Positions 1 to 20,255 of a stretch of 20,668 nucleotides of DNA are shown piece by piece (position 1 is the stretch's first letter; each line of letters starts with the position of its first letter). Source of the stretch: Phlegmacium glaucopus (Eukaryota; Basidiomycota; Agaricomycetes; Agaricales; Cortinariaceae); NCBI GenBank assembly GCA_015039465.1, contig MU130542.1:330051-350718 (forward strand), given 5' to 3'. A program made the position numbers and the translations under genes. Under the pieces are notes generated by a model that ran no database searches, had not been told where the DNA came from, and was given only the letters and a program-made list of their open reading frames with translations.

Positions 1-786
1 CTCGCTGCCAACGACCTACTCTTTGCACAGTTCACCTAACACGCCTCTTACCTTTACTATTGGTTTCTCTAATTGCTCTACAAGCTTCCGCTTTAACCTC
101 ACCTTATAGCTCAACTGTTCGTTCGTCACCTTTACTTCGCTCTTAAGGATTTCAACCTGTCCCTCTGCGACGACAAAGTCCTTGTCATGAAGTACCTCGA
201 CAACGACCATATGCTTCACTTCCTTACCCTCGTCGAAAAGACCTTGTTCAAGTTTTTACAAGACCTGGTCTAACCGTTACTAGCCCACCCCCCCTTTCTT
301 GCTAACTGCTTCCTCACCTCCCGGTTAACGACCTTTTCTGAGTTAGGGGTCTACGCGCGTCGGCTCTTTTCCAACCGGCTGGAGCTGTTTCTGTTAGTAA
401 CCTTCCGGTCCGCAGGAGCCGTTTCCTAAGTATGTCTCACCCGTAGTATGTAGTCGGTTAAAAAACTTCCCCAACTATTTGCTTTAGGTTGTAGCGATAG
501 TCGATGACGTGACTCCCCTCTCTAGCTCGTATAGTTGCTGGTATTCTAGGCAGATGCTTACCTTTTCCTCTAACTCCTATAGCTAAAGGCAAACTTTGCA
601 CCTAGACTTAACCCTGCCAAGCTAGTTAAAACCCTACTCCTATAAGAAAAGCTTACGTCCATGAGAGCCAGCTTCACCGAGGTAGAGCTGTATAGACGAT
701 GATCACGTGGTGGACTTCAGATGAGCGTACGAGACTTTCCTTTGTTTTTGTAGGAGGAGGAGTGAAAGTCAGTAGGACTAAGGACT
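1..786. CDS. C-terminal part of membrane protein A (mirrored)
   Basis: Complementing the text left to right, without reversing, from base 1 gives 261 codons and a TGA at 784-786, in frame with the 563 codons of 6096-4408, for a total of 824 residues. The translation starts ERRLLDEKRVKW and is collinear with residues from about 560 to the C-terminus of membrane protein B. It is a highly charged, Trp- and Glu/Lys-rich, probably helical cytosolic region with no membrane segment. Unlike copy B it lacks the 28-bp duplication and has GAT where B has a TAA, so the frame runs about 125 codons beyond the point where B is truncated. The TGA itself arises where copy B's relic reads FDGFDSDSDVNWIQ; a small deletion here makes it likely that this is also a premature stop. 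Confidence 0.85.
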
Positions 787-1396
787 AAGGACCTAAGTCC
801 GATGTTAAACACTAAATGGTACCCACTGGAGCTATAGAGCCCCAGCCAGACCTGGATGGGCGGTAGGTGGCACTAGGGGATAAATAGTTTAGATGGTTGT
901 TACTAAATTAGTGTAAGCGCTTTCTTTAAGCTGGGTTCAACTTGAGAAAGTGTATGTAAAAGTGCCTGCGACGGCTGAAATTGTACAGATGAGACTAGGT
1001 CTATCTGAACCCTTACTACGTTCTCAAAATTAGAGTAAGCAGCGAGGTTGTAGCCCGGTGTCAGAATTTGACTCTGAGTTTGTAAGGCCGTTTCTTCTAC
1101 CCGGAGAGCGTTAGTGAGATCCTAGTTGGTACTAAGTTGAATTGGGGAGTAGGTTCAGTAGTGAGTGCTAACTACTATATTGGGATATAGGTTGAGGGCC
1201 AGGAAGACTTAGACTAGTGGAAAGCAAACTCGGTCCCTAGGCCTTACTGTAACAATAGGTCAAATATCCTTGTCAGCTCCTGGTGTTTGTAAAAAATGTA
1301 CTGTATCTTAATGAACTACTTCGACCTCTTGCGATGCCATACGGTAATATAAGGCTTTACCTAGGTCTCAGACCTCCTAGGCTGAGCTTCCTTATC
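787..1396. pseudogene. Frameshifted tail of membrane protein A (mirrored)
   Basis: The complement read left to right continues to match the tail of copy B (14601-15360), through segments like WIQATICDLPWVTSIS and up to ERYGMPLYSEMDPESGG, ending at a TAG at 1394-1396. The frame is broken by at least two small deletions: one near 780-800, and one near 850 where copy B has two extra bases. Unrecognised introns could explain part of this, but no convincing splice pair was seen. The tail is about 190 residues in intact form and belongs to no family I can name. Confidence 0.7.
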
Positions 1397-1930
1397 AGGT
1401 GTAAGATGAAGAAATAGGTATGTAAAAGGGTGAACAAGCTCAAAAGATCGATTTGACCTAACTTATGTATAAATAATCTTACTTAAAGTACAAAATCAAC
1501 AAAACTACTGTGGAGAGCTTCATGCTTAATATTGTGAATCCGATAAACTTACTAACCACATGTTTGTGAACTTTGAAGACATCATAAGAGGGAACAAGAA
1601 AATTCCTGCTCTACGTTCCCGAAGGCTGGGATCAGAACAGATCGGTTTTACTCTACTATAGTTAAGAGCTCGTACCGCTACATAACATTTTTCAACAATA
1701 GATCGTGTACCTACCTATCGTACCTCTCTCCTCCCTGCTATCTCCTGAGCCTTATCTTAAAGTTAAACCAACTTAAATTGAATTTCTGCGCTCCCCGTCA
1801 TTTCATTCAACTGCTACACTTCCTAACCAGCTATTCATCGCAGAGACACTAGCTCCACCTACTTTGCCGTCTCTACTAGCTGCACCATATATGCTTATTA
1901 CCATGTGTTTGTAACACAACACGGCCTGCG
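1397..1930. other. Shared 3' flank between gene A and dynamin relic (mirrored)
   Basis: The reversed text is nearly identical to about 14110-14600. It has no open frame of note and probably holds the 3' untranslated end of gene A plus spacer. The match shows that the duplicated unit is continuous across this non-coding stretch. Confidence 0.75.
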
Positions 1931-3412
1931 CTCCCCCTACATTAAACCCTGCTGAAACCCTATCCCACCTAGCTCTCAATAGCGTCGTCTACTTTCAACG
2001 GCCTGTCAAGTGCTCATGCTTGAGACATTTGTATTTCAGCAAGTCTTGGTATAGTTTTAACTATTTGCCTTGGTTTATGAATGACTACGCGGGAGAGGTA
2101 CTGAAGTAGCTATATTTAGTAAAACCTATTTTATGGGAGGGCGGAAGAGCGTCTTAACCTTCCGCGATCCAGTTTTGTGCCAGGTCAAAGTGGGATCGAT
2201 GGCAGCAGGGTAAGGAGTGGGAGCGACACGTTTTTGACTCTACGGAACAGGGAAACTTGAAGACGAGTCCTTTAAGCCACGTCAGTATGCCTAACGACAC
2301 TCCTTAAAAAGAACTCGCTCTGCTTATCGAACCTACTTGGGTAGAAGTAACCCCTGGGGGGCTTAAAGTACTCGCTCCAACGAGCACTTGCATACTTCCT
2401 CCCTTCGCTAAAGTGGTGCGCCTAGCAGCCTTCCACCAAACCCATCTGGAAACTCCTCCAGTGCTCGAGCCCAATATATAAAAAGGTCAAGCAGAAAAGG
2501 TCCCTCAGACACTCTTCCGTTTTCTTTCTTATTTGATACTCATCCTTTCCTTCCTTCTCTAATTTTGTCTGGAAAAGCTTTAGTTCAGGCTATTTTACCT
2601 CGAGTTGGACAGGTGTTCTAATCTGCCAGAAGTTTATGAAAACTATCTGGCGCAGCTCGATGTCTGGTACCATTGCAGTAGCGTTTTCTTAAGGAGGAGA
2701 GAAAAAGACCGAACACGGGTACACTACGGATCGAATTACAGCGAACTTGACGCGGCGTATTGTGTCATGGTTAATGAAAGTCGCAAAGCAAAAGTAAAGC
2801 TCATTTCCTTCCGGTTAAACACAGAAGAGGTGAATCTTATGCTAGTCCGAAACACTCGTGTGGATCATACTACTGCTACTTCAACTCCCTATCAGAAGTA
2901 TCTTATTTACCCTGAACTTCTTGTATGGTTAGCAAGCGAAGGGAAGACCTACTATGAGGAACGGTTCCGCTACTCGTTGAACCAAGAGATCTCGGTTTTT
3001 TCTACTTGGTCTTTAATCGATTATTCCTCTGTTCCACTTCGGCATAATAAAAGTGTACACTGACGCTCGTTCTACTATGTCGAACCGAAAAATAAATTCG
3101 TCACTGGTTTGAAAACTGCTCCCGCTACAGTAACGATGAAGAGGATCGGGATGACTGTGAAAGTTAATTTGGAAAATCAAAAATATTTTCCTCTAATTCG
3201 TTCTCTTCTTTGTACTCTTTCGTACGTTGCGTGGCTTTACGGTGGAGTCCGGGTGACTAGACATTACCCTGTGTTAACAAACTCTTTGCATTGAGTCTTT
3301 GTTCCAGGAGAAACAGGATTAACAGATTCTTCAGAAAGGTTCCAAACAGTCCCCAGTTCTACCGAGAGACGCGAGCTACTTACGCAAGAAGTTGAACTCT
3401 AACTAGCATTTA
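1931..3412. pseudogene. Dynamin-like GTPase relic, copy 1 (mirrored)
   Basis: Read right to left, this encodes pieces of a fungal dynamin-family large GTPase (Mx/vacuolar-sorting type, membrane-remodelling). In order: VEERIHRAQRAIL (about 3400-3360), FSNNCVPLQISGPE (about 3290-3245, the segment just before the G3 region), GLIESVSRARRSSNDIALV, NQVAHRLGKEYHPEGKRTIG, an intron, GVLTKPDRI with an intact TKPD G4 motif at about 2853-2842, ILSDLISKR, a 64-nt intron (2571-2508), then the stalk from DELEKYITRARDLL through GVPNEDGFIQAIRLAQEKF and IYIDEVMERAHQ, an intron, and VRTREL. In-frame stops, frameshifts and loss of the G1/P-loop end show it is dead. The gene's 5' part is replaced by ABC-transporter sequence at about 3412-3420. 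Confidence 0.85.
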
Positions 3413-4400
3413 CTACGACTGCAACACCTCAGACCACCAGGGCCTATAGGGGCCAAACTTTGGCGGAACCCTAAGCCTCCAAAGCGACCATAGCTCACTC
3501 TCATCAAACAATTCTAGCCGGCACCGGACACACCTAAAGCGTTAAAAGACCCGACGTCTCTTCTTTTTTTATCCGTAATCCTTCTCTTTTTTTTCAATTT
3601 TGAACTTTGGGTGATTGTGGTATTCAACGCTGGGTTAGCAGTGGCTTTCGTAGTTTAAGCTTTGAAGGTGGTAGACGTCTATGCTTCTGGCCGGAACCCT
3701 TTGCTCTTGCCGTGGCTGCATCTGGTCCTCGCGAAGCCGCTCCATCTATTCCGGTGACCTTTGTGGTATACACGTAGGAAGTTGCTTTCGAGGCGCTTGT
3801 GGGCAGCTTTCCGTAGGAAGGTGACTTCGTAGCTTGACTCAGAACTTTTTCGAAGCTTGGGGTACCTGGCCTACAGTGCTTACAACTACTACCAGATTGT
3901 TAGTAGGAGTATTCATTTTTTTCTTCCTTTGTTTGGCTCCCATTCTTTTTCGAATGTAGTGTTTTAGGGGACCGGAAGGATAAGAAGTAGAGCGTGCGTC
4001 TGACTGGTGAAGGGATCGTGGGCGTTTCTGGCCGCGTTATCGGTTTGGGCGACGGTTGCAATTATCGGTTGAGGAGCACTTTCGGGTCTGGTTGAATTGT
4101 AGGTTGTAACGGTGTTGGTGTGTATAAACCGGTTCTTGTTGCCGTTACTCCAGGGACCGCAGGAGACGAAGAAAGTTGTGGAACGTACTCGAAGCTCAGC
4201 TTGGTACTAAATAGAACACAGTCCTGGTCTCTTTCTCTACAACTGGCGCGCCTCCAATAAGTCACGTAGCTCGACAGAAGGTAATACTTCATAAACTCAG
4301 GATATTCGTGTGGTAGCTCTTGACGCTACGACTCGTGCTCGGGTGGTTTAACCAAGTACTAGCTCCGAAACGTGCGGTCTCCTCTGAAGTTTCTCTTCGG
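3413..4400. pseudogene. ABC transporter (Ste6/ABCB-like) TMD fragment (mirrored)
   Basis: Read right to left, this region encodes parts of the second membrane domain of a full-size ABCB/Ste6-type exporter, the class that includes the fungal a-factor pheromone transporter. Visible pieces: FSLVLTQDKSWFDSK near 4220-4180, KEAEDARDLIAVVLGQICVV near 4170-4110, INIRDIRSMGFEA near 3890-3850, then VEGCLSTGVRGAFVEG and the helix GLIYLAEALLVYVGAVLV near 3830-3690, VTIGSQLM, an intron with a TTTTTCTTCTCTGCAG acceptor near 3553, and KIAKSTQATADLNKLLSLDT leading to HNVS at the start of NBD2. The NBD with its Walker motifs is absent: the sequence switches to dynamin at about 3415. At least one frameshift (near 3845) is present. 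Family assignment is from recall of the motif pattern. Confidence 0.65.
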
Positions 4401-4407
4401 ACCCTTC

Positions 4408-6096
4408 TCTTTCAATTGACGAGTGCATGAAATAATCACGTATAACCAAAGATTCTTCGTTTTGCTCCTTCTCTTTCCCCTTCTTAACAGTCGTTTCCCA
4501 ATGTAACCGCCGGGCCCGCCGGGCCCTACGGATGGTATCCCGTGTTCTCCTTGGCATGAGGATCCCCCCCTCAACAGTCGTTTCCCAATCGCCCCTTAAC
4601 CTCTGGACCCTACTGATGGTATCCTCCACCCTCATTGTCCAGCTGTTCTCTATGGTATATGCTTTGCTTATGTCGGCAGCTCCTAGTCGATACCGGATGC
4701 GCTCTAAGATCGACCGATGATGTTTTCGAAGTGAATCCACGTTATTTCTATCGCTGGATACTGGGTCGCCTTTGGGATCAATTCTGGCGTCAATTTCCAC
4801 TTCAAGTAGAAAGTGTCCGACATCAACGAGGGGCGCATTGGAATTTGTTGAGTAAAAAGTGTCAATCCCATTGTCTCGGGTGTAAACTCGTGTCGTACGC
4901 TCCTTGTGATCCAAAACTGTGATATATAGAATCCATTCTCCGAGTTTGTGACCCTTCGAATTCTCAGGTCCATTGTCCCCATTCCCGCGCCAATGTTCCC
5001 AATCTTCAAGTACAATCTCTTTGCGTTTCCGAGTCAAAGTGTAATACAGAGAAAGGTCAGGGTTGCGGAATGGCTCGATGAGCCCAGTGAACGACATGAT
5101 GATCTTCAGGAATTCTTGCGCTCGGGTGAGAGGCAGTACCTTGTATTTTAAGATTTCTTCATTGTCTTTGTTGCAAGTGGGAAGGGGTGAATATTCATCC
5201 GGTTCCAGAATAATCTCCAGCGGAGGCGCCGTCTTCGGACTCCCAACCCAAAAAACCAACCGAAATACAGAAAGCACAACTTCAACGCAGAGCCAACCAA
5301 CAGGACTGCCTGTCGATATGGAATTCTGTACGATGCTAAAACATCCAATATATCCCACAATAGATGCTATGATACCGATAAGGAGGAAGCATAGCAACAG
5401 CCATGTGCGTGCATCTGTTTGATATTTCTTCGTGTCGCGCTCGACGGCCGCTTCGATATCTGTATTAGGCGGCTGGTCTCCATTCTTAAGTTGAACAAGA
5501 TATTGTTCGGAAAGAGTGGTTATTCGTCTTTGTATGAGCAGCTGAATGAGCATGACGGTGATGAAGCCTCCAATAGCATGCAGAAGTGGAAATACCAGTG
5601 TCGTATCAAAAGTTAAACTGAGATATGGAGGGAAACTCATGACACATGAGAACGCGGTCATAAGCATCATGGAACCCCAATCAACGGACTTGTGGGATAC
5701 CCCAGTCATCCTGTTTCTGTCAATGTTGAGTTCCTGGATTAATTCGTCCATTCGAACCTCGATGATGTAGCGCCCTTGGTTCCTCCCTTTACCAGGCTCA
5801 ACCATAATCAAAGAAAGGTTATCTCCCTTCGGCTCGAATCCCACATCGCTAAGTATCTTTGCCCCTTCAATATCCCACAACGAGATGCAAGCGACCAACG
5901 TCTTGTATCCCGCGCTGACTATCCCAAGACTTCCGAAGATGGATATTGGCGCCATTGCTGCGCGATGCAATCCTCGTGAGAGTGCTGAGCTGACTTGGAC
6001 TTCGCATTGCTCTGTACCGAGCAGCGGAAGAAGGGCTGAAATATTTTGTATTCCGCCTGTAAGAAATGAACCTAATCCTCCACTACTGGATGACAT
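4408..6096 (-). CDS. Multi-pass membrane protein A (N-terminal 563 codons)
   Basis: Starts at the ATG at 6096 (MSSSSGGLGSFLTGG), the same start as paralogue B. As printed the frame runs to 4348, but the last 19 or so residues after SSIERE come from the mirrored segment and are spurious; the real continuation is at 1-786. About five hydrophobic segments are visible: residues about 52-72 (FGSLGIVSAGYKTLVACI), 142-162, 165-190, 233-258 (LLLCFLLIGIIASIVGYIG) and 266-288 (VGWLCVEVVLSVFRLVFWVG). A charged cytosolic region follows, with a conserved block RAQEFLKIIMSFTGLIEPF and EWILYITVLDHKERTTRVYT. No enzyme motif or named domain is recognised. Similar tandem families exist in mushrooms, but I cannot give a function. 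The gene has no introns in this part. Confidence 0.85.
4486..4622 (-). repeat. In-frame 87-bp partial duplication in gene A
   Basis: The string aacagtcgtttcccaat occurs at 4486-4502 and again at 4573-4589, and gatggtatcc follows both, giving an 87-bp period (29 codons). In the protein, a unit resembling DTISRVQRLRGDWETTVE is repeated as DTIRRARRARRLHWETTVK. Copy B lacks the second unit. The inserted unit includes the GC-rich direct repeat cgggcccgcc at about 4509-4526, unlike the surrounding composition. Confidence 0.8.
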
Positions 6097-6122
6097 GGCC
6101 GCACGATGAAAGATTTATTGTC

Positions 6123-6186
6123 GTAGGGAGTTCTTGTTGTAGGGGGTTCTTGTTGTAGGGGGTTCTTGTTGTAGGGAGTTCTTGAT
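6123..6186. repeat. 16-bp minisatellite, four units, upstream of gene A
   Basis: Four tandem copies of gtaggg(a/g)gttcttgtt, with the last ending in gat. The array begins 26 bp upstream of the gene A start codon, and the same unit recurs upstream of gene B (18310-18360 and about 19113-19160). Unit number and base changes differ between copies. Confidence 0.9.
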
Positions 6187-7540
6187 GAAGAATGGCTTAA
6201 TAGATCGCGAGAGTGGCGGCTTCGAAGCACGTCGAAAATGTACAATTCACGATGTCAATCTATTATCGTAATGAATTTTATTTTTGTCATGATTGACATA
6301 CCGTAGGTAAGTTGCCAGTCAATTATAATAACAACTGTGTGAATTGGAAGTCGGATTAGTGAGTGGATCAGCAATTCAAAATACACAGTTTAAATTTGCT
6401 CAATTTATTATCAACACATAGCTGGGACTGAGAATGATCTGCAAGGATCAGATAATACAGATATTGAGCGCTGAGCAGTGAATTTAGGGGCGGTGGGTGA
6501 TGAAGAGATTGTAGCCGAAAGTCGCCTGCTTCCTCCATATCTGCTGCTGAACGTGGGATCGCAGTTCGGTTTCCACCCCATTTTTAAGTTCATACTTTCG
6601 ATTTCTAGGAGTCATCAGGGTTGATACCTGAGCTGGCCACTCTGTTCTATCAAAAAGGTAGAGCACCGTAGTGGAAGAATCTTGCGCTGAAGAGGTTATT
6701 TGTGCATGGCCAGAGAGTTAACCAGATGATTAGCGTTCTGAATGAGTTGAGAGACTCCGAGAGAGGCAGTGAGTTGATCTCGATTTGAATCCCCGATAGT
6801 CATATGCCGTGGAACCCGTACTTACGCCCCCTCGTCGCACATCCGCATCATTTTAATGGCTCTCTGTCTCGTCTGTTCTTTTCCTTGTCCCACACGTTTC
6901 AAATTGGATCCTGTCACATTTTTCAACGCAAAAAGCTTCTGATCGACGATTACCCAAACAATCCGTGTCCTAACTGGTGATCTTCCATTGCGAAACGTCC
7001 ATCATTATGCTGTGATCTCTTTTTTTATGCGGTCTTTTGCTTGAACCGTTGTTAAACTGCGACTTCAGACGACATCCAGACGACTAAAGTCCTATTGCGG
7101 ACGACGACGACCACCAGGAAATAATCCAAGACCGCCGATAAGTTTATCATACCGACGATCCTTGGGAATTATTTTGATGATCATGTAAAAGTCAAGTACA
7201 TCACACTAGCCGGACGCGATGCCAATGTGGCGTTCAATGACAATGCGGCGTTCGACGACCCAGAGTAATTCAAGTGTTGCCGTGATGGGCTTAGAAAAAT
7301 ATAAGAAAAATGGCATGTGACTTTTTTTTTGTCTTCATAAATTCAGGGAAACGGTCTACTTATTTACCAAGGCTGTCAACACTGTCGCGGCGTTTGAACC
7401 CTCAACAATCCACGTTCAAGTCCAGACTCTGACTGGAAAACCGGGGAAGCCGAGTCTCTTGGGTCTCAGTCTCAGTCTTCCCCCAGTGGATCCCACATTG
7501 TTGAGCGTTGGCCTATCAAAGACGCTAACATGGCATGAGT
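6187..7540. repeat. Gene A upstream block (duplicated)
   Basis: Direct, diverged match to 19000-20255 (gene B upstream) and, for the first 650 bases, to 8890-9560. It should contain the promoter of gene A, which points left, but no TATA box is clear. A minus-strand reading near 6480-6660 (REWPAQ-like, then KYELKNGVETEL) is shared in decayed form by all three copies, so it may be an old coding exon. About 6821-7005 is absent from the gene B copy. The part from about 7020 to 7500 again matches about 19760-20230. No intact gene seen. Confidence 0.7.
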
Positions 7541-7736
7541 ATACTTTTGGTTGGGTCTTTGACTGCTGACAACTTATCTTGTGATGTTATCAAGTTTCTT
7601 CTGAAAAACCCACTACTCACCATCCCTCTCTAGAGTCTAAATACTTAACGGGTTCGGAGCCGACAACTGGGATAAGAATATCAGGAGGACAACTTCGTGA
7701 GAAGTTATCAGTCTCACGGTCCCATCTTCAAGTTTC

Positions 7737-7747
7737 TTTTATAAAAG
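7737..7747 (+). promoter_or_regulatory. TATA-like box of 7TM gene
   Basis: The sequence ttttataaaag lies about 40 bp before the ATG at 7786. That is close to the start codon, so the 5' leader would be short. Sequence-only evidence. Confidence 0.45.
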
Positions 7748-7785
7748 CTAAATTTAAAGGTGGCCCGCTGCTCGTTGCACTTGCT

Positions 7786-8719
7786 ATGTCCCTTGATCCT
7801 TCGTGGCGACCTGCTGAAGATGAGGTAACCATTCTCAATGAACGAACTTGGCTGGCAGGAATGATCCTGTCAGCTGCGGCCTATGGGATCGTCCTCACCC
7901 TATTCGTCCTTTCCCTCAAACAGCTTATCAGGACCATAACGAAGTATAACTACACCCAAAGGATGTTCTTCATCGTCTACATCACATTAATGTTCATCCT
8001 TGGAACGTTATTCGTGGGCGACATCGCCAAAATGACGCAACTCAGTTATATCGATTATCGTTTGTTTCCAGGAGGGCCAGGTCTGTATATTTTTTCCATC
8101 CAACGAACATTGTTTGCTAATTAATGTGTAGCGGCCTTTGAGGAACAAGAGTTCTCTATTCCTATTGATAAAATCTCTATTGTCTCATACGTGATTGGTA
8201 ACTGGCTAGCTGACGGGATGGTAGTGCGTAATCCATTCACTTCCATGTAGATTCTTCTCAATCACTCTTGACAGATATACCGCTACATGATCATTTACAG
8301 AAGCTCTCATCAATTCCCCTTTTGGATCGTCATGGCAATTCCTGTCCTTGCATACATGGCTTCTGTCTGTACGTTCAAACCCCAGGAGAGACTTGCCATT
8401 TTTCATCCTCTGACTATGTGCCTATCCAGCACTCAGTTTGGTATGGCTCGTTCAAGTATCAGCGCCGGCTTCTTCGCCATGGAGCAGTAGCGGCGCTATC
8501 AATTTCACTCCGCCATACTTCTGGATGTCGCTCTCCTTGAATATTTCGATGACGCTAGCAATCTGCGCTCGGCTCTTCCTTTTCAGATGGAGGATCACTA
8601 GAGTTCTAGGACCAAATCATGGCACCGAGTATACAAGTGTTGCTGCCATAATCGTTGAATCCTCTTTCCTGTATTCAGCATTCATATTGCTCTTCTTGAT
8701 TCCCATTCGCCCTCAATAA
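7786..8719 (+). CDS. Seven-helix membrane protein, Agaricomycete type
   Basis: Proposed exons: 7786-8080, 8132-8223, 8275-8368 and 8430-8719, with GT..AG introns of 51, 51 and 61 nt, giving 256 residues. Splicing joins hydrophobic segments in one frame: GMILSAAAYGIVLTLFVLSL (residues about 25-45), FFIVYITLMFILGTLFVGDI, the conserved-looking YVIGNWLADGM, FWIVMAIPVLAYMASVSLSL, PPYFWMSLSLNISMTLAICA and SVAAIIVESSFLYSAFILLF. The WLADG and GTEYTSVAAIIVES blocks resemble a large family of uncharacterised seven-helix proteins in mushrooms, from memory. No receptor function is shown. The frame ends early at a TAA (8717-8719): removing one base, the a at 8705, would continue as FALNNPIQNAFIQFMGEIQ to a gt donor at 8763. 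This is a one-base insertion or a sequencing error. Confidence 0.75.
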
Positions 8720-8913
8720 CCCGATTCAAAATGCGTTCATTCAATTCATGGGAGAAATACAGGTAAGTATCTCAGGTATCACACACACACAAGAACACAA
8801 ATCAATATTTCTTTCATATAATCTATATCATCGCTCCCCTTCTTATCACTTACCGTGTAGCGAATGGTACTGCTTGGGTCAACATGACCTCAGCGGACAT
8901 GGCTTCACGATGA
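8720..8913 (+). pseudogene. Decayed 3' end of 7TM gene
   Basis: After the frameshift, coding-like sequence runs to cag|gtaagt at 8762/8763. A last exon is then visible as YIIAPLLITYRVANGTAWVNM, at about 8829-8890, which is the usual final helix region of this family. No AG acceptor is in the right place; cataatcta at about 8818-8826 may be a lost one. The last codons before the TGA at 8911-8913 (MASR) come from the gene A/B upstream repeat, so the native C-terminus was replaced. Confidence 0.6.
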
Positions 8914-9560
8914 ATAATTTATTGTCGTAGTGAGTTCTTGATGAAGAATTGCCTAGTAGATCACGAGAAAGGTGGTCTCGGGGCACAATGTACAACTCAC
9001 GATGTCGGTCTATTATCGTAATTAATGTTATTTTTGTTACGATTGACATACCATCAGTAAGATGCATAATAATAACGATTGTGTAAGTTTGATGTGAATT
9101 CGAAGTCGGACTACAGCTGTTCTCATGTGTGTAGACGTTTTCAAATTTTCGCCTTGTGCGCTTTTGGTTATTACCATATATGATTGAACTTGAGCTGTGG
9201 GCCGTGGCTACACCCAGCATTACGAGTCCCATCCGAGGCTAGCATTTGGAGCTTGGAGGAGCGTAGTGGAGTGTGAGGGCATACTGGGTCATAGCCACTA
9301 CTATTTTGGGGTGTTTTTGCTGTAATGGGTGGATGAGCAATTAAAAATACGCAGTTTAATTTGTTCAATCTGTTATCAACACATAGCTGGGACTGAGAAC
9401 GATCTATAAGGATCAGATGATACAGATATTGAGCGCTGAGCAGCGAATTAAGGGAGTATTTAGGAACGGTGCGTGGCGAAGGGACTGTAGCCGAAAGTCG
9501 CCGCATACACTCATAGCTGCTGCTGACCTGGAATCACAGTTGAGTTTCCACACCCGATTT
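8890..9560. repeat. Third copy of the gene A/B upstream region
   Basis: Begins with gacatggcttcacgatgaa, the same string that spans the start codon of genes A and B (there on the opposite strand), followed by one minisatellite unit, the tctattatcgtaat...attgacata stretch, the ttatcaacacatagctggg stretch and the possible decayed exon. It is interrupted by the insert at 9114-9322. No membrane-protein coding sequence lies to its left; the 7TM gene's 3' end is there instead. Confidence 0.8.
9114..9322. mobile_element. Possible 209-bp TA-site insertion
   Basis: Absent from the other two copies of the upstream region, which read across the site as ggattagtgagtgg and agattagtgagtgg. Here the TA is present on both sides (9112-9113 and 9323-9324). 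The ends start CAGC and finish GCTG, and an imperfect inverted pair lies inside (gtggctacacccag near 9204 and ctgggtcatagccac near 9283). It is consistent with a degenerate Tc1/mariner-type MITE, but terminal repeats are very short. Confidence 0.45.
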
Positions 9561-11051
9561 TCAAGTCCATACTTTCCATTTTGACCGAAGGCGTGTGGGG
9601 AGAGAGTGAACCGGATGGTTCTGAAGTCAGGAGATTCCATAAGCGAGACGAGTCTTGCCGCCAGCAGCATGACATCTGGTCTTCGAATTGCATGCGATGT
9701 CAGGTTCCTTCTGGGCCGACCTCCATACCTTCATCGTGAGTCATTTATCCACACTCACCCTCCTTGTCCGAAGAATCTAGAGTTTGATTGGGTTCTGGGT
9801 AGTGTCTTTGAACTAGTAAATCTTGTGAGCCTTGCGAGAAGTTTGCTGGCGTAAGTCGACACCCTAGACCGAACCTACAGCATAATCTATATGCAAACCA
9901 AAAAAAAAGAATGTATATGCGTCCGGAAATTTTTCAATAGAGCGGTGGTGAGATACCCAATTCCATAATATTGTCTAGGTCGGCTCCAATATTCAAATTG
10001 AGCGAATTCCACTTGTGAGAATATGGCGCGGAAAGGGCTCAAAGTGCGTGTTGTAGCTTCTGCGGCGAGGTTGGCAGTGGGTCAAAGGATCGGCAATGGA
10101 AGTACAGTATATTGTGCTCCAAAGATCGGTCTGGCATCGAATGAACCGGCGTTTTGGGTGGATTTTGTCATCGAGGGTATGGTTAAGAACGTGATGAATT
10201 TAATTTGTTTCAGCTTTCAAAGTCGTTCTACATGTTCTGGAAGGATTACTGAAAGGACTGATGATTAGCGATGCGAGAAACCTTGAAAACAGTCTCAGGC
10301 CGAGGACAGAAAGATACGTACCCAATGTCTAACTGGGGAGCCGAATCAAAGTGCCACCAGGCAACCGAACAAGGGGAGGATTGCTTTTTCAAGATCAGAC
10401 GACGAGTTCTCTTTTGAAAGTCTCTTGGGCCTGTTCGAAATCAGTACCAGTATGAACTGAGAAGCAGAACCCTACGGTGAATATTCAAACTCCGACTGAT
10501 CCACACTACGCGGTTCATTCCTCAACTTTTGTTACTCCGGTTTTATGCTGCTATGTTCATTTCAATTTGTAACATTAAGCTCAACAGGACCCTTTCCCCT
10601 CATTACGAGTCTAACATCATGCGCATTAATTCTGCCTAAATATGGGTATTTATACAAACAAAGGCGCACATAAGAAAATTTCAAAACGTCTACCATTTCG
10701 CAAATAGCTGTAAGGCTCAAATTTTACATGTGCAGCTTCAATATAGCCCTTCTCATTGGCCTACATAAATCCTTCAGACTTTTGAATTAAATTATCGAAC
10801 GCAGAATGATTTGCCAACATATCCACGCATTTGCAATATAACATGGCTGGATGCGTTTTCAACGACTTCTAAGGATACTTGCAGTCTTGGGCTCGCATGG
10901 CTGAGTCGCTCCTTTCCTTTTTACTCCAAGTCAAGCGTGTCTCCTATATGTCACCGATAAAGCCATTGTACGTATTTTCATCATCGATTCGTCCACCAAT
11001 TAATGATCATACACCCTTGCTTACTCAGAGTTACATTCTTGCTTTTGCCTT
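9561..11051. other. Unassigned stretch, no supported gene
   Basis: A plus-strand open frame of 81 codons lies at 10023-10268 and a minus-strand reading runs past the same place, but neither shows a known motif, convincing splice sites or a partner elsewhere in the window. From 10270 to 10870 the sequence is AT-rich with no coding signal. The last part (10880-11050) ends with a pyrimidine-rich acceptor leading into the dynamin relic and may hold a lost intron or upstream exon. Confidence 0.4.
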
Positions 11052-11640
11052 CTCAGACTCCCGGGAATTCAAGACGAACTGGAAAAAAATATAATCCGAG
11101 CTCGTGACCTCCTCAGAGGTCTACCCAAACTTTCTGACGACCTGCGTGGTCAACTCACTTCACTCCGTTATACGTTCACGAGCAACCTCGCTCATGGAAT
11201 TCGTGGGGTCCCAAATGAAGATGGGTCCATCCAAGCTATTTGTCTGGTTTGAGAAAAAGTCCTCACAGCAATCCTTATGACAGTTCAAAGGGACAAAGGG
11301 ACAAGGCGTCTTACTCAGGCTCAGTTTTTGCACAGCGAGGGTGAGGAATGGGACGAGGGTAGCGAGAGTGAAACTGAACCGTGTTTTGACCTAGCGCCTT
11401 CCAATTCTGCGAGAAGGCGAGAGGGTATCTTATCCAAAACGATTTATATCGATGAAGTCATGGGGAGGACGCATCAGTAAGGTATTTGATTCCGTTTATC
11501 AATTTTTGATGATGGTTCTTAATGACTTTCTTTGTACAGAGTTCGTACTCGTGAACCACCTAGCAACTATCCATTTGTCGTACAAAAAACTTTCATCGAT
11601 GTTGCGATAACTTTTGATCCGCCCTATCCCAAAGTCATCC
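11052..11640 (+). pseudogene. Dynamin-like GTPase relic, copy B (stalk only)
   Basis: Stalk region of a fungal dynamin-like GTPase, read on the plus strand: acceptor ttctcag, then IQDELEKNIIRARDLLRGLP, LTSLRYTFTSNLAHGIRGVP, a stop codon, EGEEWDEGSESETEPCFDL, ILSKTIYIDEVMGRTHQ, a 63-nt intron (11477-11539), and VRTREPPSNYPFVVQKTFID. The GTPase domain is missing. It parallels the mirrored copy 1 (reversed 2510-1930) and copy C (13470-14090). At least one in-frame stop and a frame change make it non-functional. Confidence 0.75.
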
Positions 11641-12343
11641 CACAAGCATCTCTATAGTAGCGAACCTCTTCCTCAGCCAATCGAGTGGCTTCGGTGGAAG
11701 GCCACGGTGTATCGTACCCAAGTCGTGAGGACGATGGGGATTAAGCTTGGTCGGTATCGCTCCGACCCGCAATTTCGTTCTGCCTCTACCTCCGTCTGCT
11801 CTTCTGGACCTCCGCCAATCCCAGAGCTCGATCAACCACCAACTACCAACCAGACTATCAGAAGGCCGCCTATCCAAGGATACATAATCGACTCCGATGA
11901 CCATTATTTTTCGAACCCAAACAACCGAACTCACATATAGACGTAAACAGTCGATCCAAACACTTTGCTCCAATGGCTACTCCGTCTATGCCCTATGTAT
12001 TACTTGGGCCACTCCACCCATCTCGACTCCATTGGCGTATGTATTTTCATTCCTTTGTTCTTATTGGGAATGAGTTGAGAGAGTTTGACTAGATCGTGAG
12101 AGTGAGCTGACAAATTACAGCAATGAAGTGAGTTAAAATACATAGAAGTGTATGAGTAACTGCAGCCTAAGTGTTGGATGGGAGATCAAGGAGCAGATAA
12201 TTGTAAATCTAGAACCGAAATTGACTCTAAGTCGGAACTGCTTAATGACATCATGATTCAATAAATTAAAGAGATTTTAAATTACTGGAGACCTACTTAC
12301 CAATGAAGCCAAGATAGCGACTCGAACGGCGAAGGACAAACGA
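11641..12343. other. Spacer between dynamin relics
   Basis: Open frames on both strands cover 11635-11973, but neither has a recognisable motif; the plus reading is proline- and serine-rich (PPPIPELDQPPTTN). From 11980 to 12340 nothing coding is seen apart from short GT-rich runs. No repeat partner was found in the window. Confidence 0.4.
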
Positions 12344-14100
12344 TGTGCAAGTTTATTTGTAGGCTTGTGCCGCTTGTGCCGAATACCCCTCAAAGTTCAG
12401 TCAAACTCCGATGCGAGTGTCGTAAGTCCACAACTCGACTCCCTGCACCGACTCGCCTGTGCCAACTCAGTACTACTGTTTGTCACCATGCAAACAACGC
12501 TGTCCTCTTTTATGGTACGATGACTACCGTGATCCTCGCTTCGACTCGTACTGAGGCCAAAATGAAAATTTCACAGTATCATTTACGATCAATATCAAGT
12601 TTGAAGAACACATTCGTCGAGCGCAGAGAGCCATCTTGACTCCTAACAAATCTTGGAAAGACTTCTTAGACAATGAAGACGAATACGGCCTTGTTTCTGA
12701 GTTAATTTTCTCAAACAACTGCGTCCCATTACAGATTAGTGGACCTGGAGGTGGCAGATCTGTTATTTCGGTGCGTTGCATGCTTTCTCATGTTTCTTCT
12801 CTGGCTTAATCTCCTTTTCCAATGATTAATAGGCTTAATTGCAAGTGTCAGTAGCGCTATGAAAGTAGCGATGACATCGCCCTCGTCGCTGAAATAAAAA
12901 AACCAAGCTGTATCATGTTGCTCGCAGTCACATGTGAAAGTAATACGGCTCCACCTTACCTTCTTATTAGATAATTTCTAATTCGTCTTTTTTTCGTTCT
13001 AGCTGATTTCGAGAACCAAGTTGTTCATCGCCTTGCCTGGCAGTATCATTCAGAAAGGAAGTGGGCGGTTGGTATGTTCTTCGGGTTCCAGTTATTCTAT
13101 GACTATCCCTCACCTTCACCGTCATCATACTAGGTGTGCTCACGGGGCCTGATCGTATTCTAAGTGAAGAAGACACAAATTGGCTTTCCTTTATTCAAGG
13201 TGAGAAGGAAACGCTGGAAATAATTGGTACTGTGTTAAGCCACCCAGTTCAAGCGACATTAAGCAAGGCACCACATGGCCAGGAAAAGAGAGTAGGAATC
13301 TTTTGCAATGACGTTACCATGGCCTGTAGTCGACACGGTCTATCAGAAGTATTTGAAGATCATCTAATCTTGTGGATAGGTTGAGCTCTATTTTATCGGA
13401 TTTGATTTCGAAAAGGTGTGTTTTAATCTCTTCCTTCCTTTCCTACTCATAGTTTATTCTTTCTTTTGCCTTCTCACAGATGCCCAGGAAAAGATGAACT
13501 GGAAAAATATATAACCCAAGCTCGTGACCTCCTCGACCACCTTGCGACGATCCGCGTAGTGAAATCGCTTCCCTCCTTCATACGTTCACGGGCAATCTCG
13601 CTCATGAAAAACTGGGGAGGGTCCCAGATGAAGATGGGTTCATCCAAGCTATTCGTCTCGTTCAAGAACAATTCCTCACAGCAATCTGTATGACGGCACC
13701 GTATTTCCTGAGCAGAAGTTCAAAGGGACAAGGTATCTCAGGTTTTGTACAGCGGGGGTGAGGAATGGGACGACGGGAGCTAGGGTGAAATCGGACCGTG
13801 TTTTGACCTAGTGCCTTCCAATTCTGCGAGAAGGCGGGAGGGTATTTTATCCAAAATGATTTATATCTATGCAGTCATGGAGAGGGCGCATCAGTAAGTA
13901 TTTGCTTCCGTTTATCAGTTTTGATGATGGTTCTGAACGACTTTCTTTTTACAGAGTTCGTACTCGTGAACTGCCTGGCAACTATCCATTCGTCGTACAA
14001 AAAACTTTCATCTGCTGCAACTCTCGATCCACCCTATCCCAAAGTCATCCCAAAAGCATCCCCTCACGTCCGTCACAACGCACTATTTTTGTACCATTAT
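12344..14100 (+). pseudogene. Dynamin-like GTPase relic, copy C
   Basis: Runs from a poor N-terminal region to the stalk. Readable pieces: FEEHIRRAQRAILTPNKSWKDFLD (about 12600-12670), ELIFSNNCVPLQISGPGG (about 12700-12755), ADFENQVVHRLAWQYHSERKWAVG (about 13000-13075), an intron, GVLTGPDRILSEEDTNWLSF (about 13132-13193), SSILSDLISKR, a 64-nt intron (13416-13479), CPGKDELEKYITQARDLLD, then frameshifted stalk and, after an intron at 13894-13954, VRTRELPGNYPF-like or shifted sequence. The G4 motif reads TGPD instead of TKPD; the lysine normally contacts guanine, so this copy would be impaired even if intact. The P-loop was not found. Copy 1 is the closest relative. Confidence 0.8.
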
Positions 14101-14600
14101 TCGTATATACCACATTGATCATTTCTGCCGTTTCATCCACCTCGATCACACAGACGCTACTTATCAACCAATCCTTCAGATTGTCAATTTAATTTACTGC
14201 TCCTCGCGTCTTTAAGTTAAATTCAACAATTGAAATTCTATTCCGAGTCCTCTATATCGTCCCTCCTCTCTTTATGCTATCCATCCATGTGCTAGATAAC
14301 AACTTTTTACAATACATCGCCATGCTCGAGAATTGATATCATCTCATTTTAGTTATACAAGACTAGAGTCGGAAGCCCTTGCATCTCGTCCTTAAAAGAA
14401 CAAGGGAGAATACTACAGAAGTTTCAAGTGTTTGAACACCAATCATTCAAAATAGCCTAAGTGTTATAATTCGTACTTCGAGAGGTATCATCAAAACAAC
14501 TAAAACATGAAATTCATTCTAATAAATACGCATTCAATCCAGTTTAGCTAGAAAACTCGAACAAGTGGAAAAATGTATGGATAAAGAAGTAGACTGTGGA
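14101..14600. other. 3' flank of gene B, shared with copy 1
   Basis: No gene seen. The sequence matches the mirrored 1397-1930 read backwards over its length with few changes, including the motifs cgagaggt and gtgttataattcgtacttc. It probably contains the 3' untranslated end of the original gene B. Confidence 0.7.
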
Positions 14601-16153
14601 CTATTCCTCCGAGTCGGATCCTCCAGACTCTGGATCCATTTCGGAATATAATGGTATACCGTAGCGTTCTCCAGCTTCATCAAGCAATTCTATGTCATGT
14701 AAGAAATGACCGTGCCGGAGCTTACTGACTGCTCCTTTAAACTGGATAACAATGTCATTCCGGATCCCTGGCTCAAACAAAAGGTGATCAGATTCAGGAG
14801 GACCAGGAATTGGATGGAGGGTGACATCATCAATCGTGAGTGATGACTCCGATGAGGGATTGAGTTGAATTATGGTTAATCCTAGAGTGACTGCGAGAGG
14901 CGCATCTTCTTTGCCGGAATGTTTGAGTCTCAGTATAAGACTTTGGCCAGTTGTTGGAGCGACGAATGAGATTAAAACTCTTGCATTATTCCCAAGTCTA
15001 TCCGGATCAGAACGCATGTTGTTCGAGCCGTCAGCGTCCATGAAAATGTATGTGAAAGAGTTCAACTTGGGTCGGATTTCCTCCGCGAATGCAATTAGAT
15101 CGTTATTGGTAGATTTGATGAACAGGGAATCACGGTGGATGGCGGGTAGACGTCCAAACCAGCCCCGAGATATTGAAGTCACCCATGGTAAATCACAAAG
15201 TGTGGCCTGAATCCAGTTGACATCGGAATCAGAATCAAAACCGTCGAAAGAGATGAGGACAATGTTTTTGTTTCCTTTCAGAGCATGCGAGTAGATTTCA
15301 AGTGGTGTACTAGTATGAAATACGTTGAGATGGAGCCACTTCGACCGAGAGTACCTGCATTTGAAATAGTGATGTGCTGGCTTGGCTTTGGCCTGAAGCC
15401 ATGGCTTTGGCCTGGCTTGCCTTGGCTTTGGCTTCACTTTTTCCAGGCCAAGGCCAAACCCTTGGTCTTGGCTTGGCCTTGGCCTGGCCTGGCTCAAGCC
15501 ATGGCTTGGGGTCAAAACTTGGCTTGACTTTGGCCTTGGCTTGGCCTTGGCTCAGGCCATGGCTTACACCTAAAAAAGTGAAGATTAGTAAAAAAAAAAA
15601 ATACATAACATTTTTTCTGCCTAAATTCATCATTAATTCTAATGTCTATCCATTATTCTCTGCAGGATCAGGTAATTTCTTTATGAATTATCCTTAAATG
15701 AATAAAAATACCCTATATAAAATAATATAATCACCTGTTTTATGATAAATTGTTTTTAGAAAAATCAAATTTTAACTTTTTATACATCATAATTTACCAC
15801 TCAGTCCTATCAAAAAATTTCCCAAAGCCATGGCTCAGGCCATGGCCTGTGGCTTTGAAAATCTCAAGCCAAGGCCACAGGCCAAGGTAAGCCAAGCTCA
15901 TGGCTTGGCTTTGGCCTGGCCTATTTTGCTTGGCTTGGCCTGGCTTCTGGCTTCCAGGCCAAGCCGGCACATCACTAATTTGAAAAGAGCATTGTCATCC
16001 CAAAATTGATCGAACCGTCCCAATTCCGATCCACGTTTCAAACGGAATTAGGTATCCTCGATCTCTTTTTCCATCCGTAGACGAATCTCACCGGTATCTT
16101 CGACCAGTGTCCTCAATTTGGATAGGGATGTTGACTTTGGTTTGTCAAGCCCT
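14601..16153 (-). pseudogene. Disconnected tail of membrane protein B
   Basis: Minus-strand sequence that was once the end of the membrane protein B gene. It continues from the truncation point as VWASHIGQFLEGLDKPKS, reaches a TAA at 16048-16050 (copy A has GAT there), continues FRLKRGSELGRFDQFWDD, is interrupted by the 611-bp insertion, and then reads RYSRSKWLHLNVFHTSTP to the TAG at 14601. The printed 304-codon frame from 15515 uses an ATG inside the insertion, so its first 50 or so residues (repeated PKPRQARPKP-like sequence) are transposon. The authentic part has VLISFVAPTTGQSLILRLKH and ends in an acidic SGGSDSEE tail. Family unknown. Confidence 0.75.
15367..15977. mobile_element. 611-bp hAT-like MITE with 8-bp target duplication
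   Basis: Both ends carry TAGTGATGTGC(T/C)GGCTTGG as inverted terminal repeats. The 8-bp direct repeat atttgaaa lies immediately outside (15359-15366 and 15978-15985). The mirrored copy 1, read backwards, keeps the unoccupied site with a single attcgaaa. Inside are runs of GGCTTGG/CCAAGCC words in both orientations flanking an AT-rich core (about 15575-15820), so the element can fold back. No transposase frame. 8-bp duplications and TAGTG-type ends fit the hAT superfamily. Confidence 0.9.
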
Positions 16154-18283
16154 TCAAGAAATTGGCCGATATGTGAGGCCCACACTCTCTGGACGTTTTG
16201 TCTTGCAGGATTCCAATGATTGTCTTTGTCTTGCAGGATTCCAATGATTGTCTTTGTCGAGGTCAGCCAACCTTTTCTTAGCTGCGTGCATGTGGGTATC
16301 GAGTCTCTTCCAGCAATTGGCCCTCCATTCCCTCGTCAATCTTTCTTTCTCTTCCACTCTATCATTACCGATCTGGTCCAGAACATCTTTCAGATTGTTC
16401 CAGAAAAGCTGCTCCCACTCCCCCACCTCGTATACCAGCAATTGCTCCATCAAGTAGTGTTCAAAAAACAGCGCCTGCTCCATCTCCCTCTTTGATAAAC
16501 CTGTTGCAGGCTTATTTTCAACTGACTCCTTGTCAACTCGATATTCCACTCCAACTTCGCCTTCGAACATCTCCTTAATCTCTTTGGTTATCATTTCCAT
16601 TCTCCGCGCAATCCACTTGACACGTTTCTCATCCAGCAACCGTCGCTCTCTTTCAATTGACGAGTGCATGAAATAATCACATATCAGCAAAGATTCCTCG
16701 TTTTGCTCCTTCTCCTTCCCCTTCTCAACAGCCATTTTCCAATCGTCTCCATCTTCTTCCTCCCTTAACCTCTGGACCGCACTGATAGTATCCTCCACTT
16801 TCATTGTCCAGCTGTTCTCTATAGTATACGCTTTGCTTATGTCGGTAGCTCCTAGTCGATACTGGATGTGCTCTAAGATCGACCGATGATGTTTTCGAAG
16901 TGAATCCAGATTATTGCTATCGCTGCATATTGGGTCCACTTTGGGATCAATTTTGGCGTCAATTTCGACTTCAAGTAGAAAGTGTCCGACATCAACGAGG
17001 GGCGCATTTGAATTTGTTGAGTAGAAAGTGTCAATTTCGTTGTCTCGGGTGTAAACTCGTGTCGTACGCTCCTTGTGATCCAAAACGGTGATATATAGAA
17101 TCCATTCTCCGAGTTTGTGACCCTTCGAATTCTCAGGTCCATTGTCCCCATTCCCGCGCCAATGTTCCCAATCTTCAAGTACAATCTCTTGGCGTTTCCG
17201 AGTCAAAGTGTAATACAGAGAAAGGTCAAGGTTGCGGAATGGCTCGATGAGACCAGCGAACGACGTGATAATCTTCAGGAATTCTTGCGCTCGAGTGAGA
17301 GGCAGCACCTTGTATTTTAAGATTTCTTCGTTGTCTTTGTTGCAAGTGGGAAGGGGTGAATATTCATCCGGTTTCAGAATAATCTCCAGTGGAGGCATGT
17401 CAATGTTGTCCCCGATTGGAATGAAGGCCCAAACAATGAATCGCGTCAAAGAAAGCACAGCTTCCACGCTGAGCCAACCAACAGGACCGGTTGTCGATAT
17501 CGACTTCTGTACGATGCTAAAACATCCAACATATCCCACAATAGATGCTAGGAGACCGAGAAGGAGGAGGCATAGCAACAGCCATGTGCGTGCATCTGTT
17601 TGATGTTTCTTCGTGTCGCGCTCGACGGCCGCCTCGATATCTGTATTAGGCGGCTGGTCTCCATTCTTAAGTTGGACAAGATATTGTTCGGAAAGAGCGG
17701 TTATTCGTCTTTGTATGACCAGCTGAATGAGCGCGGCGGTGATGCAGCTTCCAAAAACACGCAGGAACGGAAATACCATTGTCGTAGTAACCCCAGTGAA
17801 AGAAAGATATGGTACGACACTGGGCAAAGATAAACATGCGGCGGTCAGGGCCATCGTCTGGATGTTGAAAGCAGCGGACTTGTGGGATACCCCAGTTATC
17901 CTGTTTTTGTCAATATTAAGTTCCTGGATTAATTCGTCCATTCGAGTCTCGATGATTAAGCGCCCTTTCCTCCCTTTACCAGTCTCAACCATAATCAAAG
18001 AAAGGTTCTCTCCCTTCGGCTCGAATCCCACATCGCTAAGTATCTTTGCCCCTTCAATATCCCGGAACGAGATGCAAGCGACCAACGTCTTGTATCCCGC
18101 GCTGACTATCCCGAGACTTCCGAAGATCGACATTGGCGTTACTGCTACGGAAAAATATCCTCGTGAGAGTGCTGAGGTGACTTGGAATTCGCACTGCTCT
18201 GTACCGAGCAGCGGAAGAAGGGCTGAAATATTTTGTATTCCGCCTCCAAGAAATGAGCCTAATCCTGGATCACTGGATGACAT
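16154..18283 (-). CDS. Multi-pass membrane protein B, truncated
   Basis: 709 codons from the ATG at 18283 (MSSSDPGLGSFLGGG). The same plan as protein A: hydrophobic segments at residues about 52-72, 140-162, 168-192, 235-260 and 266-292 (LSVEAVLSLTRFIVWAFI); then charged sequence with AQEFLKIITSFAGLIEPF, EWILYITVLDHKERTTRV and, from about residue 540, a long Glu/Lys/Arg-rich probable helical region (EEKERLTREWRANCWKRL). The last 27 residues are out of the native frame because of the 28-bp duplication at 16197-16252. A protein ending there would keep all membrane segments, so function is possible but unproven. No introns, no known domain. Confidence 0.85.
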   Translation of the reverse strand: MSSSDPGLGSFLGGGIQNISALLPLLGTEQCEFQVTSALSRGYFSVAVTPMSIFGSLGIVSAGYKTLVACISFRDIEGAKILSDVGFEPKGENLSLIMVETGKGRKGRLIIETRMDELIQELNIDKNRITGVSHKSAAFNIQTMALTAACLSLPSVVPYLSFTGVTTTMVFPFLRVFGSCITAALIQLVIQRRITALSEQYLVQLKNGDQPPNTDIEAAVERDTKKHQTDARTWLLLCLLLLGLLASIVGYVGCFSIVQKSISTTGPVGWLSVEAVLSLTRFIVWAFIPIGDNIDMPPLEIILKPDEYSPLPTCNKDNEEILKYKVLPLTRAQEFLKIITSFAGLIEPFRNLDLSLYYTLTRKRQEIVLEDWEHWRGNGDNGPENSKGHKLGEWILYITVLDHKERTTRVYTRDNEIDTFYSTNSNAPLVDVGHFLLEVEIDAKIDPKVDPICSDSNNLDSLRKHHRSILEHIQYRLGATDISKAYTIENSWTMKVEDTISAVQRLREEEDGDDWKMAVEKGKEKEQNEESLLICDYFMHSSIERERRLLDEKRVKWIARRMEMITKEIKEMFEGEVGVEYRVDKESVENKPATGLSKREMEQALFFEHYLMEQLLVYEVGEWEQLFWNNLKDVLDQIGNDRVEEKERLTREWRANCWKRLDTHMHAAKKRLADLDKDNHWNPARQRQSLESCKTKRPESVGLTYRPIS
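16197..16252 (-). repeat. 28-bp tandem duplication causing frameshift in gene B
   Basis: The unit tttgtcttgcaggattccaa plus eight bases is present twice without spacer. Copy A has a single unit. 28 is not a multiple of 3, so the duplication shifts the frame and leads to the stop at 16154; removing one unit lets the frame continue as RVWASHIGQFLEGL. Confidence 0.9.
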
Positions 18284-18309
18284 GGCCTCACGATGAAAAT
18301 TTTATTGTC

Positions 18310-18360
18310 GTAGGGAGTTCTTGTTGTAGGGGATTCTTGTTGTAGGGAGTTCTTGTTGTA
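18310..18360. repeat. 16-bp minisatellite upstream of gene B, interrupted
   Basis: Three units of gtaggg(a/g)(g/a)ttcttgtt and the start of a fourth, which is split by the element at 18361 and resumes at 18998 as tagggagttcttgat. Confidence 0.85.
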
Positions 18361-18997
18361 CATCAGTAACTTTGCATCTGAGTTTCCAGAGGTTGCACAA
18401 CATAGAAAACATGAGAAAACACACAGAAACTATGGAAACTCAGACATCAGGAAACTTATGTCCCTTTTCCAGGAAACACACCTGTTGGGTGGGGTGTGGG
18501 AACCTAGGAAACTTGTAGAAACTCGAATTTAACAATTTACATACATAATTACTCTAGTAAGACTACATATGATGAGCAGATGCTCATGGGAATTGGGCGA
18601 AAAGTGGTGGCCTTTATATAAGTAAATGGGCTCAGGGTTAGTTCGCTAGAATATTCCATCAATTGCTTGACATTGACAACTGGAATTGATGGAATATTCT
18701 GGTGATTTCTAGTGAGCTAACCCTGAGGCCAGTTACTTATATAAAGCCACCACTGCACAGTTAATTCCCCACTAGCATCAGCTAGTTGTAGTCTTACTAG
18801 TTACTAGTAACTAGTAGTATTACTTTGGTAGACTAAATTTCGTAGTGACTGAATACTTAGCATTTTTGTTGTCATACAATGTAAGAACTGCAGAGTTTCT
18901 GTGTTTCTGTGTTTCCAGGCTTCCGAAAACCCAGAATCATGTAGAAACAAATGAAAACTCTTGAAAACACGGAATCTGAAATGCTATTTTACTGATG
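18361..18997. mobile_element. 637-bp fold-back MITE at a TA site
   Basis: Flanked by TA on both sides (18359-18360, 18998-18999) inside a minisatellite unit that is unbroken in other copies. The ends are inverted: CATCAGTAA at the left and TTACTGATG at the right, with further inverted similarity inward (gcatctgagttt / aatctgaaatgc). The centre is a long hairpin at about 18550-18825: agtaagactaca, tggtggcctttatataagta, ctcagggttag and attccatcaatt each recur in reverse complement about a loop near 18675. No coding capacity. The TA duplication suggests a Tc1/mariner-mobilised element. Confidence 0.85.
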
Positions 18998-18999
18998 TA

Positions 19000-19262
19000 G
19001 GGAGTTCTTGATGAAGAATGGCTTAATAAAGGTGGCCTCCAGGCACTATCGTAATGAATGTTATTTTTGTTATCATTGACATAAGTTGCCAGTGAATTAT
19101 AATAACGACTGTTGTAGGGGGTTCTTGTTGTAGGGAGTTCTTGTTGTAGGGAGTTCTTGATGAAGAATGGCTTAATAAAGGTGGCCTCCGGGCACTATCG
19201 TAATGAATGTTATTTTTGTTATCACATTGACATAAGTTGCCAGTGAATTATAATAACGACTG
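19000..19262. repeat. Tandem duplication in gene B upstream region
   Basis: About 112 bases starting gggagttcttgatgaag (19000-19111) recur at 19149-19261 with minor changes, separated by minisatellite units. Gene A and the third copy have this stretch once. Confidence 0.85.
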
Positions 19263-20255
19263 TGTGAATTCGAAGTCAGATTAGTGAGTGGATGAGCAAT
19301 TCAAGATACACAGTTTAACTTGCTCAATTTGTTATCAACACATAGGTGGGACTGAGAACGATCTGTAACGATCAGATAATACAGATATTGGGCGCTGAGT
19401 AGTGAATTTAAGGACGGCGGGTGATGGGAAGACTCTGCCTCCTCCATAGCTGCTGTTGAACGTGGGATCGTAGTTCGGTTCCCACCCCATTTTTAAGGCC
19501 ATACTTTCGATTTCCAGAAGTCATCAGGTCGATCCCTGAGCTGGCCACTCTGTTCTATCAAAAAAGTAGAGTGCCGTAGCAGAAGAATCTTGCGCTGAAA
19601 AGGTTGGTAGTGCATTGCGAGAGAGAGTTCACCAGATGATTAACGTTCTGCATGAGTTGAGAGAGAGAGAGACTGTGAGTGAGTTAACCTCGATTTGAAT
19701 CCCCGATAGTCATATGCCGTACAACCCAGTGGCCCGCAACCAGGTTATGTGATTACATTATGCTGTGATCCCAATTTTTTGCGGTCTTTTGCTTGAACTG
19801 TTGTTGAACTGCGACTTCAGACAACATCCAGACGACTAAATTCCTATTGCGGACGACGACGACGACCAGCAAAGAATTCAAGACCGCCGATAAGGTTATC
19901 ATACCGAAGGATTCTTGGGAATTATTTTGATGATCATGTAAAGTTAAGCACATCACACTAGCCGGACGCAATAACAATGTGGCGTTCGATGACCCAGAGT
20001 AATTGAAGTGTTGTCGTGAAGGGCTTAGAAAAATACAAGAAAAATGGCATGTGACTTTTCTTTTGTCTTCATGAATTCAGGGAACGATACACCGATTTAC
20101 CCAGGCTGTCAACACGGTCGCAGCGTTTTAACCCTCAACAATCCACGTTCAAGTCCAAGCTCTGACTGTGAACACGGGGAAGCCGAGTCTCTTGGGTCTC
20201 ACTCTCACTCTTCCTTTCAATCTTGTCGCTTGTAACGCTTGGCCTCAAGGTGTCG
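19263..20255. repeat. Gene B upstream block (duplicated)
   Basis: Direct match to about 6340-7540, lacking about 180 bases present at 6821-7005. It includes the decayed KYGLKNGVGTELRSH reading on the minus strand (about 19445-19500), a gagagagaga run near 19660 and the tcatgtaa...cactagccgg stretch. No intact gene. Confidence 0.7.

Follow-up and report, generated by a model that had tools for sequence, protein, structure and literature searches.

A tract stored backwards at a gap edge in the Phlegmacium glaucopus genome assembly

How can a stretch of genomic DNA come to be stored back to front without being complemented? The question is raised by the first 4407 bases of a 20,668-nucleotide stretch of the Phlegmacium glaucopus assembly (GCA_015039465.1; 60.5 Mb in 259 contigs). 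This whole stretch, which we call the window, is C186:330051-350718, where C186 (MU130542.1) is a scaffold of 510,156 bases. We found that window 1-4407 (the block) is the right neighbouring sequence, plainly reversed in place, and we conclude that it is an assembly-quality problem and not a biological feature.

The block matched the rest of the window only when it was read backwards. In this reading, 1027 of its 4394 14-mers recurred in window 4408-20668, compared to 1 when read forwards and 0 as the complement. The reverse-complement 14-mers that an ordinary inversion would leave were also absent from window 4408-20668 (0 of 4394). Random sequences (200 first-order Markov sequences of the block) gave a mean of 0.26 and a maximum of 4, and a separate count of backwards 14-mer matches between the block and the rest of the window found 1072 position pairs. 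A preliminary description of this DNA had called the block a string reversal, as distinct from a reverse complement, and these counts bear it out.

The block has a sharp edge. When window 1-4700 was compared with the remainder of the scaffold stretch read, there were 3904 14-mers with mirrored matches only, the last of which ended at 4407, and direct matches set in at 4406-4408. A lone direct-only 14-mer lies within the block, at 1490. Once un-reversed, the block aligned by blastn with window 11015-16648, inside the range in which a match had been proposed (11000-16700), and also with paralogue arrays elsewhere on C186. The longest chain covered 13-4407 at 90%, and the closest piece was 97.5% identical over 1882 columns. 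As printed, the block had itself as sole match in a genome-wide search (one first-look candidate), so no second mirrored copy of its gene family is shown. The relevant features of the window are as follows.

1-4407, no strand: mirrored tract 1, the correct local sequence with its letter order reversed and uncomplemented, starting at the first base past a run of N
4407-4408, no strand: artificial joint; 4408 truly adjoins base 1 (six of six paralogues reaching the joint), and 4407 would face the upstream gap
11015-16648, plus strand: paralogue of the un-reversed block, in three pieces of 79-87% identity
16649-18360, plus strand: two-piece paralogue of window 4408-6173; it starts right where the block's match ends, with zero bases missing
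4348-6096, minus strand: open reading frame (ORF) of an uncharacterised gene family; 6096-4408 (563 codons) is genuine, and 4407-4348 is a false 3' end from the mirrored tract

Base 1 belongs beside base 4408, as had been proposed. The two were neighbours in all six paralogues on C186 in which both pieces reach the joint (blastn), at 272823/272824, 281608/281609, 304396/304397, 323722/323723, 346698/346699, and 384069/384070; at the first of these the block match ends one base early, at 272822. Three further places, in which the block's last base was matched and the match to 4408 onward starts about 186 bases in, were left out of this comparison.

The protein encoded across the joint leads to the same place. 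The 563 codons of 6096-4408 track a 709-residue paralogue through SSIER, after which the printed ORF diverges; the E that follows SSIER in the printed ORF is shared with the paralogue by chance. The complement of the window from base 1 upwards, in frame 0, begins ERRLLDEKRVKW, which is how the paralogue goes on at the point where the printed ORF departs. It stays open for 261 codons, followed by frame breaks that are absent from the one compared paralogue (322274-325447). The ORF thus truly continues in the complement of the window from base 1 on. Because the two pieces are adjacent in the paralogues and the protein is continuous across the joint, we conclude that no bases were lost or gained there and that the string was reversed in place.

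Mirrored tracts on C186 lie at the edges of gaps. Base 1 of the window is the first base past a 4283-base run of N (C186:325768-330050), and the window's end meets a second run of 11,105 bases (C186:350719-361823). We scored 400-base windows of C186:190051-460718 (250,256 non-N bases) against their own plain reverse with a strand-symmetric order-5 model. There were three mirrored tracts, all of which touch runs of N:

C186:330051-334457: tract 1, right of the N run at 325768-330050
C186:361824 to ~363656: tract 2, right of the N run at 350719-361823, holding repeated sequence; its far boundary was set by where matches break and is less certain than the boundaries of the other two
C186:~438299-439637: tract 3, left of the N run at 439638-442670, holding repeated sequence

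Together they amount to about 7.6 kb of the 250 kb of non-N sequence read. A model trained only on C186 190-300 kb gave whole-tract scores of -201, -29, and -48 for tracts 1, 2, and 3, respectively. Of 136 held-out 1-kb windows, 7 had negative scores. Tract 1 accounted for four of them, tracts 2 and 3 were each overlapped by one (-1.8 and -18.1, respectively), and the seventh was at 420051.

Tract 3 has the same anatomy at the other side of a gap. Un-reversed, it matched C167:161593-162927 (99%) and C126:91192-92531 (94%) over its full length, and the normal flank before it matched C167:161510-161593 and C126:91110-91192, which adjoin those matches. As printed, its only full-length match was itself. 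By these alignments, we read tract 3 as the right-hand end of a contig, reversed in place.

Mirrored copies of the tract 2 repeat, which is long terminal repeat-like by eye and stands in a complement relation to a normal copy past the next gap, occur on many contigs. The repeat had at least 93 matches in normal order (best 40 of 965 candidates scored), and the whole tract 2 query had at least 86 in mirrored order (best 40 of 761 candidates scored). A 26-mer of the repeat, with up to two mismatches, occurred 280 times in normal order (134 + 146) and 20 times mirrored (9 + 11).

Most of the mirrored loci that we probed also lie at or near a gap marker. We looked at 18 loci, picked from the table of mirrored matches where it hinted at an edge position, with other mirrored loci left out. 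Six were at N or a scaffold end: N was seen in a first 201-base look at five (C224, C145:472k, C148, C181, and C235), and C118 was at a scaffold end. At four more (C171, C15, C220, and C219), N was 250-660 bases past the last mirrored letters read, and at another four (C3, C237, C183, and C144:196k) the edge of the mirrored tract had 25 or 26 consecutive A. None of six normal repeat copies had N beside it, although these were probed less evenly, and not for A runs: a single 201-base look covered one copy, 41-base probes without such a look covered four, and one copy had both, with three of the six probed on both sides. Probes of 41 bases every 400 bases can overlook short gaps. The difference in N or scaffold end between mirrored loci (10/18) and normal copies (0/6) had a Fisher p of 0.024.

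Since there are more mirrored tracts on C186 and mirrored repeat copies on many contigs, we conclude that the reversal was made in the assembly and not by the cutting of the window. The preliminary description was right to suspect an artefact of processing, in that the string reversal lies at gap edges of the assembly, and mistaken in placing the cause in the extraction of the window: the tract immediately follows a run of N in the source scaffold, and the other tracts are outside the window. Because base 1 is a contig edge, the first base past the N run, the window merely starts where the block starts.

The runs of 25 A were written by software. We counted runs of exactly 25 or 24 A, bounded by other letters, on all contigs. 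Runs of 25 were found 157 times on the plus strand versus once on the minus strand (two-sided binomial p ~1e-45), and runs of 24 were found 0 times versus once. Real poly-A has no reason to favour the printed strand of a scaffold, and such strand asymmetry marks the runs as placeholders; they presumably stand for unknown bases. At C176:123849-123875, a mirrored match starts at an A run. The five runs of 25 or 26 A with surroundings read are:

C186:311191-311215, which sits exactly at the end of the block's 97.5% match
C3 near 48160-48184 (26 A)
C237
C183
C144:196452

Window 1-4407 is the sequence that rightly extends the contig beginning at 4408, in reversed letter order, and we think it highly probable that it was written during long-read extension of scaffold gaps. 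Gaps of a scaffolded draft would have been extended with long reads, each extension anchored correctly to its contig, with its letters probably put down outward rather than left to right. In tracts 1 and 3 the joint is exact and the sequence on the contig side normal, indicating that the extension was correctly found and that only the letter order was lost on writing. Whole reads were not reversed, since reversed reads would have failed to align with the contig.

A long-read gap filler similar to PBJelly fits best as the writer, and we infer that this genome went through such a treatment. In the passages cited, PBJelly counts a run of N as a gap from 25 letters upwards; it extends the flanks of gaps and closes or 'overfills' them (PMC3504050; PMC7757076). 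For AllPathsLG assemblies of some strains in the Laccaria bicolor project, PBJelly is described as the tool used for patching and Quiver as the one used for polishing (PMC12923307). Flank extension, closing and overfilling, the 25-N threshold, and use on agaric AllPathsLG assemblies are thus points of likeness (PMC3504050; PMC12923307). In contrast, letter-reversed fills and a 25-A placeholder do not figure in the descriptions cited (PMC3504050). The A runs equal PBJelly's 25-N threshold in number, but the letter differs and the cited text names no such spacer (PMC3504050). One-base gaps between the block and four paralogues (10 in 3449 columns, 7 in 3700, 16 in 4463, and 3 in 1882; 1 in 3378 between the first two of these paralogues) are weakly compatible with a long-read consensus.

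Several observations weigh against this explanation. Five of the eight flanks of the four N runs in the C186 stretch are not mirrored, which means that not every extension is affected. Within tract 2 the composition gives a mixed score (+7.5 at 362651), and the held-out 1-kb window C186:420051-421050, with no gap close by, scores as mirrored (-10.3). The A run at C186:311191-311215 is flanked by normal sequence on both sides, indicating that not every placeholder adjoins mirrored sequence. Four of the 18 probed loci (C226, C145:781k, C144:1215k, and C144:1217k) had neither N nor a run of 25 A in the stretches read; the last two are 2 kb apart and may be a single tract. Another pair of paralogues has nine one-base gaps in 3382 columns, and the long-read error signal is therefore weak. 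Finally, we searched the literature for a letter-reversal assembly fault, and none of the papers listed reported one. Siamaera or chimeric long reads are long-read artefacts that can corrupt fills, and they yield the reverse complement, not the plain reverse. Inaccurate or overfilled gap fills are described, with none reversed in the passages cited (PMC8848313; PMC4580222).

Some other step of processing might have reversed the tracts. The draft assembler, and not a later gap filler, could have written some contig ends backwards, for example from a left-extension buffer left unreversed. The anatomy would be equal, with contig ends affected at gaps and at a scaffold end. However, mirrored tracts abut 25-letter placeholders within otherwise continuous sequence, in keeping with a later round of work on gaps already present, and left and right ends are both affected; we consider this origin unlikely. 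It is far less likely that the reversal was made in cutting the window, or was a deliberate change to the window alone. The start of the block at window base 1 and its exact reversal in place would fit such an origin, but base 1 is the edge of a contig, one mirrored tract is on the left side of its gap, and mirrored tracts are found outside the window on C186 and on many contigs. The other C186 tracts and the mirrored 26-mers found genome-wide rule out an edit of the window alone, unless the entire assembly was changed.

A real mirror-image segment, copied in the wrong polarity by swinger-type polymerisation, is effectively excluded. The letter relation in the block does equal the swinger rule for DNA, 'A<->T + C<->G' (PMC4942731). 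However, wrong-polarity joints would be needed on both strands, as is generally known, and the tracts do not occur independently of gaps: they follow gap markers, except at the four of 18 loci with no edge in the stretches read. For comparison, we searched 20,395 E. coli records with a 700-base fragment of E. coli 16S. It was found in 37,600 places, spread over 5382 of the records, and megablast gave zero matches for the same fragment in plain reverse. Least probable of all are an ordinary inversion and similarity due to chance, low complexity, or mirror repeats. These are countered by the alignment of 4.4 kb at 90% and by 1027 reversed versus 0 reverse-complement 14-mers against a random mean of 0.26; the 14-mer counts rule out both inversion and chance. 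In a separate search with an 18S ribosomal RNA 26-mer (up to two mismatches), the assembly had zero matches in either normal or mirrored order, and ribosomal DNA may therefore be missing from it.

The block shows an ordinary route by which swinger-like records can arise. 'A<->T + C<->G' is, according to the cited text, the sole swinger rule so far found for DNA (PMC4942731). The likeness is that reversal on one strand equals complement without reversal on the other; the difference is that swinger DNA is there ascribed to polymerase behaviour, whereas here the position of the tracts marks a processing fault (PMC4942731). A broader idea, which we put forward only tentatively and think rather doubtful, is that a widely used long-read gap filler with an undescribed orientation fault planted mirror tracts, often by a 25-letter spacer, in many deposited genomes, and that the published 'A<->T + C<->G' DNA also came from it.

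The fault matters for annotation. Mirrored tracts resemble orphan sequence: genes are broken, false protein ends and ORFs appear, and relatives are missed by normal similarity search. Given about 7.6 of 250 kb on C186 and 20 of 300 copies of the repeat 26-mer in mirrored order, a sizeable part of the assembly may be affected, and, should the program be in common use, the fault may be present in other genomes as well. A simple test is to score every stretch both as printed and in plain reverse with a strand-symmetric k-mer model, and to tally the runs of 25 A on either strand.

The mirrored tract also holds a likely false gene:

2605-3063, plus strand: 152-codon ORF, probably spurious, without a Pfam match

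Four ORFs had zero matches in Pfam. The two ORFs tested from the uncharacterised protein family that the joint interrupts (window 4348-6096 and 16154-18283, with an array at C186 247-433 kb) had none there. Seven copies of this family have open frames of about 1000 codons. We found 362 protein relatives; the 120 listed are at most 70% identical, and one of them bears the name Phlegmacium glaucopus. An RPB2 exon matched Marasmius, Mycena, and Agrocybe at 93-95% among its named best hits, and the protein relatives that carry names are from agaric mushrooms.

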